Source of the DNA: Lysobacter concretionis Ko07 = DSM 16239
GTDB lineage: Bacteria; Pseudomonadota; Gammaproteobacteria; Xanthomonadales; Xanthomonadaceae
Assembly: GCF_000768345.1 (NCBI RefSeq)
Contig: NZ_AVPS01000001.1
Span: 186,001 to 250,000 of the forward strand
Direction: 5' to 3'
Length of the DNA: 64,000 nucleotides
Positions 19,995-49,407 of this stretch are shown piece after piece; positions within the stretch are counted from its first letter, which is position 1; each line of letters opens with the position of its first letter. The notes under the pieces are model-generated. The model was not told the origin of the DNA and did no database searches. It worked only from the letters and a program-made list of their open reading frames with translations. A program made the position numbers and the translations under genes.

Positions 19995-20732
19995 ATGAGG
20001 GTCGTGATTGCCGACGATGAGCCGCTCGCGCTGGCGCGCCTGCGCGGGTTGCTGAAGGATCTGCCGGGCATCGAGGTGGTTGCCGAGGCGGGCGATGGAC
20101 AGCAGGCGCTGCAGGCCTGCGCCGAGCACGAGCCGGACCTCGTGCTGCTGGATATCGCGATGCCGGGCATCGACGGGCTGGAGGCGGCGCGGCACCTGGC
20201 GGCGTTCGAGCCGCGGCCGGCGGTGGTGTTCTGCACCGCCTACGACGCCCATGCGCTGTCGGCATTCGAGGCCGAGGCGATCGACTACCTGGTCAAGCCG
20301 GTGCGCGCCGAACGCCTGGCAGCGGCGCTGGAGCGCGTGCGCACGTTCGCCGCCGGGCGCGAGCGCAATGCCGGCAGCGCAACGGATCGCAAGACCGGCC
20401 CGCGCAGCCATCTCTGCGCCCGCCTGCGCGGCAGCCTGCGGCTGATCCCGGTCGAGGACGTGCGTTACCTGTATGCCGACGAGAAGTACGTCGTCGTCCA
20501 CCATGCGCGCGGCGAGGACCTGATCGAGGAGTCGCTGAAGTCGCTGGAGGACGAGTTCGGTGAGCGCTTCCTGCGGATCCACCGCAATTGCCTGGTCGCC
20601 CGCCACGAAATCACCGAGTTGCGCCGCAGCCCGGACGGACAGGTGACGGTGGTCTTGCGGCATGTCGTCCAGCCGCTGGAAGTGAGCCGGCGCTGCGTGG
20701 CCGGCGTGCGGGAAGTCCTCCGGCACCTGTAG
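19995..20732 (+). CDS. LytTR response regulator, AlgR-like
   Basis: A 245-residue two-component regulator. The receiver domain has the acidic pair in ADDEP (7-11), the phospho-acceptor in [15 protein letters not shown], and the conserved Lys in DYLVKPV. The C-terminal LytTR DNA-binding domain (about 140-245) contains [20 protein letters not shown] and [12 protein letters not shown] good GGAGG precedes ATG 19995. It sits directly before hemC, as algR does in Pseudomonas, but no AlgZ-type sensor kinase gene lies beside it in this window. Confidence 0.9.
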
Positions 20733-20802
20733 GAGCGACGTTAGTCGCGAATTCACTGAGGCCCGGTTTCGGCGCGCTATCGCGACTGACATCGCTCCTG
20801 CA
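20729..20802. repeat. Interspersed palindromic repeat pair overlapping the regulator stop codon
   Basis: TGTAGGAGCGACGTTAGTCG starts at 20729, so the TAG stop of the LytTR gene lies inside the repeat. The inverted partner TCGCGACTGACATCGCTCCT begins at 20780. The pair can fold into one hairpin of about 74 nt between the regulator and hemC and may act as an attenuator or mRNA stabiliser. Confidence 0.75.
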
Positions 20803-47029: not shown

Positions 47030-47410
47030 TTGCCATGACCGCGACCGTGTCGGCAACGGCAACGGCAACGGCAAGAGCGGATTCCCGGCTCTGGCGGGGG
47101 CGGCGCCCTGTCGGGGGTTTGCTACCCGGCTCGGTCAGGCCATCCCTGGCCTGACTCGCCGCCGCAGACCATCCATGGCCTGCTGTCCGCAAACTCCCGA
47201 CAGGACGCCACGTCGCCGTTCAATTGACCACACCCAGGCTGCTATCGGTCGCCCGTTGCCCGCTACCGGCCCCGCCACCTGTCGTCATCCCCGCGAAGGC
47301 GGGGGTGAGATCAGGCGCTTGCGAGCCGCTGGCTCGCGCCTGATTGAACGCACGAGCGCTACGCGCGAGAGCCGGGGATCGCAAGATCCAGGGACTTTCG
47401 CTCCGTGGCC
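47030..47410. other. Intergenic region with short repeats before xerC
   Basis: 381 bp without a gene. It holds four CGGCAA hexamers (47051-47074) and a GTCATCCCCGCGAAGGCGGG repeat near 47284 that recurs at 51779. This gap separates xerC from its usual upstream partners, so xerC may have its own promoter here. Confidence 0.6.
47284..47305. repeat. Short palindromic repeat, ATCCCCGCGAAGGCGGGG type
   Basis: Contains the palindrome CCCCGCGAAGGCGGGG. A second copy occurs at 51779. It resembles the small inverted repeats scattered in many proteobacterial genomes. Confidence 0.6.
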
Positions 47411-48298
47411 ATGAGCACACCAGTCGAGGACTTCCTGTCCCATCTGGCGGTGGAGCGGAGGATGTCGCCGCACACGCTCGACGCGTACCGGCGTGACCTG
47501 ACCGCGCTGGCGCAGTGGGCGGACGCGCAGCAACTGGATCTGGTCGGCCTGCAAACCGAATCGCTGCGCGCATTCATCGCCGCCGAGCACCGCCGCAAGC
47601 TGTCGCCCAAAAGCCTCCAGCGACGCCTGTCCGCGTGCCGGAGTTTCTACGGCTGGCTGCTGAAGCACGGCCGCATCGAGGCCAGCCCGGCCGCCGCGAT
47701 CCGTGCCCCGAAAGCGCCGAGAAAACTGCCGCAGGTGCTCGACGCCGACGAGGTCAAGGTGCTGGTCGAGGTGCCCACCGACGCGCCGTTGGGCCTGCGC
47801 GACCGCGCATTGCTGGAGCTGTTCTATTCCTCCGGCCTGCGCCTGGGCGAGCTGTGTGCCCTGCGCTGGCATGATCTCGATCTGGACGACGGCCTGGTCA
47901 CCGTGCTCGGCAAGGGCGGCAAGCAGCGCAGCGTGCCGCTGGGCTCGTTCGCCCGCGCGGCATTGGCCGAATGGCGCGCCTCCACCGGCGCCGCCAACGA
48001 CAGCCCGGTATTCCCCGGCCGCAACGGCCCGATCACCCCGCGCGCGGTGCAGTACCGCCTGGGTCAGCTGGCCCTGCGGCAAGGCCTTTCCAAACGCGTC
48101 CACCCGCACATGCTCCGCCACAGTTTCGCCAGCCACATCCTGGAGTCCTCCGGCGACCTGCGTGGCGTGCAGGAACTGCTCGGCCACGCCGATATTGCGA
48201 CCACCCAGATCTACACCCACCTCGACTTCCAGCACCTGGCCAGCGTTTACGACGCGACCCATCCGCGCGCGAAGCGGAAGTCTGCGGACGAAGACTGA
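47411..48298 (+). CDS. xerC: Tyrosine recombinase XerC
   Basis: It resolves chromosome dimers at dif together with XerD. The 295-residue protein has an N-terminal SAM-like domain (about 1-95) and a catalytic domain with Arg144 (GLRLGEL), Lys168 (GKGGKQR), His233 and Arg236 (HPHMLRHSF), His259 (LGHADIATT) and nucleophile Tyr268 (IYTHLD). ATG 47411 is two codons inside a GTG frame at 47405. The position after dapF and DUF484 is the conserved xerC locus. Confidence 0.96.
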   Translation: MSTPVEDFLSHLAVERRMSPHTLDAYRRDLTALAQWADAQQLDLVGLQTESLRAFIAAEHRRKLSPKSLQRRLSACRSFYGWLLKHGRIEASPAAAIRAPKAPRKLPQVLDADEVKVLVEVPTDAPLGLRDRALLELFYSSGLRLGELCALRWHDLDLDDGLVTVLGKGGKQRSVPLGSFARAALAEWRASTGAANDSPVFPGRNGPITPRAVQYRLGQLALRQGLSKRVHPHMLRHSFASHILESSGDLRGVQELLGHADIATTQIYTHLDFQHLASVYDATHPRAKRKSADED

Positions 48299-48313
48299 AC
48301 AAAGTTACGCGCG

Positions 48314-48380
48314 GCGAGCCGGGCATCCGGCTCAAGTTGCTCAACGGATATCCGCCTGGTTGAACCGGGCTCCCACTTCG
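48314..48380 (+). repeat. Hairpin repeat, copy C (degenerate)
   Basis: An imperfect stem (GAGCCGGGCATCCGGCTCA near 48315 with TGAACCGGGCTCCC near 48361) encloses AGTTGCTCAACGGATATCCG and CCTGGTTG, related to the loop of the two better copies at 48438 and 48616. Confidence 0.5.
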
Positions 48381-48437
48381 CTCTGAAGGGAACGTCGAGG
48401 CTCGTTGTATGACATCGACGCTGATGCCGCGTGGACA

Positions 48438-48506
48438 GGTCGTGCCGGGTATCCATTCCAGTCGCTCCCCGATACTCGCTTGGTGGAATGGACACCCGGC
48501 ACGACC
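48438..48506 (+). repeat. Hairpin repeat, copy A
   Basis: Arms 48438-48460 and 48484-48506 pair at 22 of 23 positions (GGTCGTGCCGGGT.. / ..ACCCGGCACGACC). The loop reads CAGTCGCTCCCCGATACTCG and then CTTGGTG, 27 nt counting the closing pairs. Confidence 0.85.
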
Positions 48507-48615
48507 TCCGCAGAAATGTCGCACGACGCGACAGGAGCAGCCCGCAGTCCGGAGTGCGGCAATCCGTCGCAGCAGATCAGCACCTGGCTCCAACAACCGC
48601 CCTGAACGCAGGTAG

Positions 48616-48682
48616 CGGCCGTCGGGTGCCGTTTTCACCAAGCGAATATCGTGGAGCGACTGAAAACGGCACCCGATGGCCG
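48616..48682 (-). repeat. Hairpin repeat, copy B (inverted orientation)
   Basis: Arms 48616-48635 and 48663-48682 pair at 19 of 20 positions. Read on the minus strand, the 27-nt loop (48636-48662) matches copy A at 25 of 27 positions although the stem sequences differ. Confidence 0.85.
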
Positions 48683-48710
48683 CCCCCAATCTGTATCCGC
48701 CGCTACCGTC

Positions 48711-48776
<66 letters not shown>

Positions 48777-48855: not shown

Positions 48856-49407
48856 ATGGACCCCAGCCAGAACCCCCACGTGTTCCACGCCACCACCATC
48901 GTCTCGGTGCGTCGCGACGGCCGCGTTGCCATCGCCGGCGACGGCCAGGTGACACTCGGCAACACGGTGATGAAATCCAACGCCCGCAAGGTGCGCCGGC
49001 TCGGCCGCGACGGCCAGGTCATCGCCGGTTTCGCCGGCGCCGCCGCCGATGCCTTCACCCTGTTCGAAGTCTTCGAAGCCAAGCTCGAAAAGCACGGCCA
49101 ACTGACCCGCGCCGCCGTCGAGATGGCCAAGGACTGGCGCACCGAACGCCGCTTCGGAAAGCTCGAAGCCCTGCTGGTCGTCGCCGACAAGGAGACCTCG
49201 CTGGTCATCAGCGGCACCGGCGACGTGATCGAGTCCGACGACGGCATCCTCGCGATCGGCTCCGGCGGCATGTTCGCCCTGTCCGCCGCGCGCGCGCTGA
49301 TGGCGCACTCCCAACTGGACGCCAAAGCCATCGCCACCGAAGCCATCAACATCGCCGGCGATGTCTGTATCTACACCAACCGCAACGTCGTGGTGGAAGA
49401 ACTGTGA
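48856..49407 (+). CDS. hslV: ATP-dependent protease HslUV, peptidase subunit HslV
   Basis: A proteasome-like threonine protease that forms double hexamer rings with HslU. The protein is 183 residues. The catalytic Thr corresponds to Thr13 in [13 protein letters not shown], preceded by a 12-residue leader, whereas E. coli HslV begins MTTIVSVRR. Other blocks are [15 protein letters not shown] and [26 protein letters not shown] ribosome site precedes ATG 48856. It is followed by hslU after 2 bp. Confidence 0.96.

Follow-up and report, generated by a model that had tools for sequence, protein, structure and literature searches.

The ends of IS200/IS605 elements are single-stranded DNA hairpins that are read on one strand, and integron attC sites are likewise single-strand hairpins of one polarity, with a variable self-complementary stem whose base is constant, as are the extrahelical bases. 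Rickettsia palindromic elements are palindromic repeats that are able to sit in frame inside protein-coding genes. Closest in habit to the hairpins described here are the REP/BIME sequences. Di Nocera et al. (2013, PMC3733652) describe GTAG REPs as palindromes of 20–40 bp, with exceptional loops of 9–15 nt or, where self-complementary inside, of up to 27 nt. Recognition by TnpAREP is known as strand-specific and loop-dependent, and the REPs of Marinomonas, 38–42 nt in length, have large loops (PMC8266576).

Here we describe hairpins from a 64,000-nt stretch of the Lysobacter concretionis genome (the window). Two of them, A and B, are mutually inverted and both lie in the gap between xerC, an ordinary housekeeping gene, and hslV:

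47405–48298, plus strand: xerC (tyrosine recombinase XerC), the upstream neighbour; NCBIfam TIGR02224 above cut-off
48313–48382, minus strand: degenerate hairpin C; covariance-model match of 27.3 bits, E = 0.0011
48437–48507, minus strand as the folded strand: hairpin A; loop at 48461–48483, CCAAGCGAGTATCGGGGAGCGAC on the minus strand
48612–48615, plus strand: REP-like GTAG at the 5′ base of B on the folded strand; not constant in the hairpin family
48615–48683, plus strand as the folded strand: hairpin B; loop at 48638–48660, CCAAGCGAATATCGTGGAGCGAC on the plus strand
48856–49407, plus strand: hslV (HslVU peptidase), the downstream neighbour; NCBIfam NF003964 above cut-off

The arms of A (48437–48460 and 48484–48507) are 24 nt long and those of B (48615–48637 and 48661–48683) 23 nt; both pairs are 96% complementary across a 23-nt spacer. 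The first-pass annotation had described near-identical loops in A and B (25 of 27 nt) on different stems that each pair with themselves, and a third, degenerate copy at 48314. All of this is borne out: the 27 nt comprise the 23-nt unpaired loop and two closing pairs, and the third copy is hairpin C. Pairing in B extends to 22 of 23 positions on the minus strand and is complete on the plus strand, with one G.T pair. A scan of the window with a covariance model of 29 hairpins scores B at 88.4 bits and A at 83.3 bits; both are part of the model, so that of the three only the match to C, which has several broken pairs and one inserted loop base, is independent. A weak fourth match at 20729–20801 (18 bits, E = 0.11) has a different loop. 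A chance origin of the window hairpins is excluded by three analyses. The loop pattern with up to 3 mismatches occurs twice in the window against 0.07 expected, and 0 of 100 shuffles reach 2; DNA folding of the folded strand gives z-scores of −9.3 for B and −8.6 for A, with 0 of 200 shuffles equally good; and a loop-blind scan of the 64 kb (arms matching at 17 of 20 or better, loops of 17–33 nt) returns three inverted repeats, A and B among them. Hairpin C folds as DNA no better than shuffles (z = −0.8) and as RNA with z = −2.9.

Several other repeats lie in the same part of the window. Positions 47086–47209 are part of a second dispersed repeat (minus strand, TTTGCGGACAGCAGGCCATGGATGG), which also flanks many hairpins of the L. 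concretionis genome, often just past the hairpin unit, and 47285–47309 hold a palindrome, CCCCGCGAAGGCGGGG, similar to one (CCCCGCGAAAGCGGGG) that adjoins a hairpin elsewhere in the genome (C20:455606). CAACGG repeats occupy 47052–47073, and a short GTTGCT tandem array lies at 48708–48746, between hairpin B and hslV.

The search by covariance model that had been proposed for A and B returned further copies in L. concretionis and in related genomes, and their stems pair. With 150 candidates scored per genome, the counts are lower bounds: at least 35 copies in L. concretionis, at least 76 in Pseudohaliea rubra (Cellvibrionales, Halieaceae), at least 48 in a Halioglobus metagenome-assembled genome (MAG) and at least 9 in Novilysobacter antarcticus. 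BLAST gives 53 matches in the L. concretionis genome, and a loop scan of 17 of its stretches plus the window gives 35 hairpins. Across 17 hairpin-poor or other genomes, the same search found no copies in 15; two genomes classed as hairpin-poor in the transposase comparison below, G243 and G255, have 2 and 3 copies. The exact 23-nt loop occurs with differing stems in at least 50 stretches from seven genomes of a species-level collection, namely two named Lysobacter (one now Novilysobacter antarcticus), Pseudohaliea rubra, the Halioglobus MAG, a Halieaceae MAG and two unclassified gammaproteobacterial MAGs. Within the family Lysobacteraceae, the loop at up to 2 mismatches is present in 36 of 395 genomes (backward control, 0 of 395), and in a sample of the class in 1 of 369, that of L. 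concretionis (backward control, 1 of 369). Viral contigs yielded no exact loop, and plasmids and phages gave no match.

Most copies lie outside genes. Among 111 hairpins that have a called gene on each side, the flanking genes are tandem for 73, convergent for 24 and divergent for 12 (109 in all), and 2 hairpins lie within a short-chain dehydrogenase gene. The view that the hairpins have something other than a coding role needs amending for a few copies inside that gene, which are translated in either direction. The alternating orientation noted at first is also common, 43 of 60 pairs of neighbouring hairpins less than 300 nt apart being convergent and 6 divergent, and is not general, 11 being tandem (the A–B pair is counted twice). 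Groups of like stems in the L. concretionis genome suggest, from sequence comparison, recent spread. Some copies carry additions: in two Pseudohaliea loci (L059 and L064) the loop is longer by about 15 nt ahead of the constant part, with model matches of 83–84 nt, and at L010, L011, L017 and others a small hairpin, CCACCGG...CCGGTGG, lies directly 5′ of the main hairpin on the strand termed F below and marks a subfamily that has multiplied in L. concretionis.

A typical hairpin is 69 nt long, with 23 pairs and a 23-nt loop. We refer to the strand whose loop reads 5′-ACCAAGCGANTNNCGNGGAGCGACT-3′ as F, to the genus of L. concretionis as g1, and to other Lysobacteraceae genera as g51, g28, g3 and g5. 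For comparison of stems and loops we assembled 211 rows: all 35 hairpins found in L. concretionis, 63 distinct of 64 from Halieaceae and MAGs (which exclude 8 Lysobacter loci) and 113 distinct of 118 from other Lysobacteraceae; A and B enter twice through locus L098, leaving 209 different hairpins. The 23-nt loop and its closing A–T pair are near-invariant across two orders, Lysobacterales and Cellvibrionales. The loop, the complement of which reads GTCGCTCCNCGNNANTCGCTTGG, varies mostly at positions 9, 12, 13, 15 and 22, and the closing pair is kept in 113 of 113 rows from other Lysobacteraceae, 62 of 63 from Halieaceae and MAGs and 33 of 35 from L. concretionis. Mean identity within groups is 0.93–0.97 for the loop versus 0.47–0.70 for the stem, the constancy of the loop being partly ascertained because copies were found mostly by their loop. 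A loop-blind scan addresses this for loci that already hold a copy: among long inverted repeats with loops of 17–33 nt, the consensus loop is present in 26 of 32 at L. concretionis loci, 70 of 75 at loci of the exact-loop genomes and 22 of 28 at g51 loci, versus 1 of 16 in 119 kb of control loci, and four of the remainder have the same loop with wider bounds. It follows that, at least in the vicinity of known copies, few hairpins of this size have a decayed loop.

The stems change while pairing is retained, as the first-pass annotation had claimed from two copies. On average, 19.6–20.7 of 22 positions form Watson–Crick pairs between the arms of the same hairpin, versus 10.4–14.7 between arms of different hairpins. 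In 36 distinct g51 hairpins (37 rows, with the poorly paired copy L173 retained), 96.1% of cells are paired and 22 of 23 pairs have two-sided changes; 300 cells are changed on both sides, versus 91 when shuffled. The mixed set of 29 hairpins gives 97.9% of cells paired and again two-sided changes at 22 of 23 pairs, and covariation scores are 0.961 (g51) and 1.071 (mixed set), versus 0.20 and 0.24 when shuffled. Hairpin B and its four orthologues, which make up four distinct sequences, are 98.9% paired with three two-sided changes; in this small set the number of further pair types is not above the shuffled number.

Departures from pairing reveal which strand folds. On the strand read GTCGCTCC..., A.C/C.A departures outnumber G.T/T.G at positions 1–22 by 58 to 7 in L. 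concretionis, 61 to 14 in Halieaceae and MAGs and 99 to 16 in other Lysobacteraceae; on the opposite strand, F, the A.C/C.A departures are G.T or G.U wobbles. The filter used to accept hairpins treated G.T on the read strand as a pair, a bias that runs counter to this result. When stems are grouped by complete linkage at 25% distance, 74 clusters divide 33 versus 7, with 34 ties (p = 4 × 10−5), and at distances of 35% and 45% the polarity persists over 52 and 33 clusters (p = 0.0015 and 0.0074). Under single linkage, chaining reduces the stems to 9 clusters, among which there is no cluster-level polarity (5 versus 2, p = 0.45), and the polarity is weak in g51 (18 to 8). The strand-polar mismatches point to F, with the loop ACCAAGCGAATATCGTGGAGCGACT, as the strand that must fold, and reinforce the earlier suggestion of selection on a folded single strand.

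Copies persist at shared sites. The xerC–hslV hairpin pair is present in 5 of 10 genomes examined in the genus of L. concretionis. Four related genomes carry an orthologue of B at this site, and C is the counterpart, by place and sequence, of the left hairpin of the pair in these four; A is extra and, by reading, was not seen at the site in the four related genomes with the pair. The gap seems to attract palindromic repeats. In two other genomes (G116 and G090; L108 and L104) it is without hairpins and contains two mutually inverted copies of another repeat, which is GTAGGAGCGGCTTCAGCCGCGATC-like in G116 and related but less regular in G090, and in a third (G012, L109) the left hairpin is degenerate and another palindromic repeat is apparently inserted in its loop. 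BLAST identifies at least six further sites common to different species of the genus, and at one shared site the hairpin is kept while the DNA around it is unalignable. The g51 hairpins adjoin infC–rpmI, lpxA–lpxB, adk–mpl, purF–DUF455 and IMP dehydrogenase–FolD-like genes, and also ferritin-like (Dps)–RecQ-like, hemE and AAA ATPase (HslU by reading)–hslV genes.

Stems at g51 sites that are common to several species were compared in eight pairings. At lpxA, 11 of 22 pairs differ between G276 and G157, every one of them on both arms and paired in both genomes, while the loop matches at 23 of 23 positions and the flanking genes are 93–95% identical. Over the six non-repeating pairings (lpxA-1 G276/G157, lpxA-2, dps, SDR and purF twice), 32 changes affect both arms and 2 affect one; in two of the six the loop differs too, at 3 and 4 of 23 positions. 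The concerted changes reflect either strong selection against intermediates or single events that rewrite both arms.

Both g51 hairpins within called open reading frames sit in one gene, for a short-chain dehydrogenase, the orthologue of which was examined in 13 of 15 g51 genomes (G231 and G329 gave distant matches only). Hairpins that are in frame and free of stop codons occur at the same position in 4 of the 13. Two of these (G219 and G296) have F as the sense strand; a third (G286) has the complement of F as sense and a loop with a few changes; and the fourth (G276) has a degenerate F-sense and an intact F-antisense hairpin about 110 nt apart (L241/L253). Seven of the 13 (G255, G243, G266, G190, G206, G138 and G058) have a short uninterrupted junction instead, and G157 and G174 (L242 and L243) have a longer linker without a hairpin, conceivably the footprint of a lost copy. 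The in-frame copies together with their empty relatives indicate that the element inserts, and along with the dispersal of copies and the frequency of inverted pairs they support the mobility suspected at first. The constant loop is translated in two quite different ways, and this places the constraint on the nucleic acid rather than on the protein.

A partner enzyme was sought among candidates suggested by known systems and among the neighbours of the hairpins. A REP-associated tyrosine transposase (RAYT), the partner proposed by the first-pass annotation for a REPtron-type element, shows no association with the hairpins. Its Y1 transposase domain, PF01797, is present in 24 of 36 carriers versus 13 of 21 hairpin-poor genomes of the family, 13 of which were re-searched by covariance model; moving G243 and G255 to the carriers gives 26 of 38 versus 11 of 19. 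Two of 7 named carriers have the domain; none was found in Pseudohaliea rubra, with its at least 76 copies, and none of 13 RAYT genes inspected (up to 1.5 kb on each side, 3 kb for one) has an adjoining loop. Integron integrase is likewise rejected, TIGR02249 being above cut-off in 31 of 38 genome sets (two genomes entered twice), including hairpin-poor ones, and not in Pseudohaliea, as is reverse transcriptase, RVT_1 being found without association in 6 of 38 genome sets, 5 of them above cut-off. A gene flanked by two hairpins was also considered: in the L. concretionis genome, two intervals between convergent hairpins, 4.1 and 5.3 kb long, contain genes of ordinary appearance. Two of these genes were scanned; the first is a ketoacyl synthase, and the second is without a Pfam match. 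All-against-all BLAST of open reading frames from 67 loci gives 71 clusters, the largest of those listed consisting mostly of frames over the repeats themselves; one member each of six others is an ABC transporter, a TonB receptor, an HrpB helicase, a histidine kinase, an acyl-CoA dehydrogenase and a short-chain dehydrogenase. No transposase stood out near the hairpins of the 67 loci, a result that covers the minority of recurrent clusters to which a name was given, and a partner may lie nearby. No loop-reading factor was found among RAYTs, integron integrases, reverse transcriptases and the named recurrent neighbours.

The orientation of F with respect to genes bears on whether DNA or RNA is the working form. 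Were F to work within the mRNA of a neighbouring gene, it would be expected on the sense strand, and the polarity would be expected to disappear in antisense copies. For the 97 hairpins that adjoin a gene end, single copies have F as the sense strand in 20 cases and as the antisense strand in 24. The mismatch polarity is similar in the two orientations (antisense, 62 to 14; sense, 32 to 9; related copies are not independent), and reversed in the few single sense copies of g51 (1 to 4). Different species have the loop in opposite directions at the g51 sites adk and infC. Hexamers resembling TATAAT show no enrichment on the 5′ side of F (8 of 207, versus 21 of 207 on the 3′ side), and 4 of 207 hairpins are followed by a T-run. 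With Rfam 15, a tRNA is the only match in the window above the gathering score; A and B have weak matches to microRNA models below it. Together, the absence of a sense preference, the similar polarity in both orientations, the opposite loop directions and the lack of promoter or T-run signals favour single-stranded DNA. A lagging-strand bias might be expected of a single-stranded DNA element that is coupled to replication, such as IS200/IS605; F has no bias to the lagging-strand template in eight single-contig genomes (16 versus 17; single copies, 11 versus 12), which counts against the single-stranded DNA reading. Within species, no polymorphism of copies was seen.

We lean towards the interpretation that A and B belong to a newly found family of mobile hairpins, located mostly outside genes and acting as single-stranded DNA. 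Strand F would fold, and the stem would do no more than present the loop, which would leave its sequence free for as long as pairing holds; the constant loop would be the signal for a putative trans-acting factor. The element would spread as a small non-autonomous unit, often of two hairpins about 100–210 nt apart with their F strands pointing apart, would settle mostly between genes and would then stay, with both arms changing together. We infer three of these points, namely DNA rather than RNA, the existence of the factor and its role in moving the element, and hold single-stranded DNA as the working form with moderate confidence. More tentatively, the hairpins could represent a class of element defined by its loop, in which a 25-nt single-stranded signal, present in two gammaproteobacterial orders, is served by a putative strand-specific reader unrelated to RAYTs and integron integrases while the stem is rewritten on both arms at once.

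Other explanations account for parts of these observations. F might be transcribed as a small RNA or an untranslated-region hairpin, the loop binding a protein or RNA and G.U wobbles being tolerated. The polarity is compatible with G.U wobble, RNA folds of F are more stable than those of its complement (−49.4 versus −44.9 and −49.1 versus −44.0 kcal/mol), and a constant loop on a variable stem, as found here, is typical of protein-bound RNA. We regard an RNA element as rather unlikely, however, given the orientation of F, which is not preferentially sense, and the polarity, which is alike in sense and antisense copies; given a loop that runs in opposite directions between species at adk, infC and the dehydrogenase gene; and given the lack of promoter or terminator signals and of an Rfam family. 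The small-RNA family proposed initially likewise finds no support. A true REP/BIME of a RAYT (a Y1 HUH transposase), with an unusual stem and loop and the transposase since lost in many lineages, would explain the inverted pairs in intergenic regions and the folded-strand polarity. It would be in keeping with the strand-specific, loop-dependent recognition by TnpAREP and the large-loop Marinomonas REPs reported in PMC8266576, and it gains from GTAG at the 5′ base of B, the only hairpin in the window to have it, from GTAG in 12 of 20 Pseudohaliea rows and from GTAG or GTGG in 17 of 35 L. concretionis rows versus 7 of 35 at the other base. Yet GTAG is present in 18 of 211 rows overall: 12 of 20 in Pseudohaliea, 4 of 35 in L. 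concretionis, 0 of 43 in other Halieaceae and MAGs, 1 of 37 in g51, 0 of 31 in g28, 1 of 38 elsewhere in g1 and 0 of 7 in g3 and g5, with GTAG or GTGG in 37 of 211. The distribution of RAYT genes and the short stems and loops of published GTAG REPs (see below) also speak against this origin, which we consider unlikely.

The hairpins might instead be host-maintained sites, that is, cruciforms or hairpins in fixed places, immobile and bound by a chromosome-structure, repair or replication protein. The g51 copies beside infC, lpxA, adk, purF, hemE, dps and hslV, at several sites common to at least two species, would fit such a role, as would the 14 of 22 g51 hairpins within 37 nt of a stop codon and the retention of the loop, wholly or mostly, in orthologous copies. 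This explanation is improbable in light of copy numbers that range from none found to 35 within one genus, the patchy occurrence (36 of 395 genomes in the family; L. concretionis alone among 369 in the class sample), the insertion into a gene with empty relatives and the groups of like stems, which suggest recent spread. Functionless mutational palindromes, their arms kept alike by template switching (quasipalindrome correction) and their loop merely inherited, would yield concerted arms, and 32 double versus 2 single changes are what template-directed rewriting would give; a constant loop beside drifting stems and the strand polarity are left unexplained, and we give this reading very little credence.

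The near-constancy of a 25-nt sequence between Lysobacterales and Cellvibrionales, on stems that may share little but complementarity, implies a conserved reader. Such a reader, if found, could be a new protein acting on single-stranded DNA, and the concerted arms make the upkeep of palindrome arms (by selection or by template switching) directly testable in hundreds of natural copies. Searched on both strands, 17-nt cores taken from the two main loop forms are absent from a full-text collection of 5.39 million papers, which lacks most subscription papers, and a search for palindromic repeats together with Lysobacter, Xanthomonadales or conserved loops found nothing on this family among the papers listed.

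Compared with known systems, the hairpins have the habit of REP/BIME sequences: many copies, extragenic positions and inverted pairs. Like the GTAG and CGTC families, as portrayed by Di Nocera et al. (2013, PMC3733652), they are palindromic and mostly extragenic, with some copies in genes, and they number in the tens, often as inverted pairs between tandem or convergent genes, with a patchy distribution between species. They differ in a stem of about 23 bp, often unrelated between copies, where that study gives REP stems of 6–13 bp; in a constant loop of 23–25 nt, where most REP loops are of 2–5 nt; and, unlike REPs, they have neither a constant GTAG tag nor an association with RAYTs. The habit is thus REP-like, but the tag, the size of stem and loop and the link to a transposase all fail, and the family works like REP without being a standard REP. 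Recognition of a hairpin on one strand, with loop or stem irregularities as determinants, is described for REPtrons and TnpAREP in PMC8266576, and we propose the same here; unlike in REPtrons, these hairpins were not found to flank any transposase gene. With IS200/IS605 ends the contrast lies in a much larger loop, no lagging-strand bias and no transposase gene found. The in-frame habit is shared with Rickettsia palindromic elements; the present family is constant in its loop and mostly intergenic. Integron attC sites resemble the hairpins in polarity and in their variable stem; unlike the partner of attC, the integron integrase occurs independently of the hairpins, and the constant part is here the loop.
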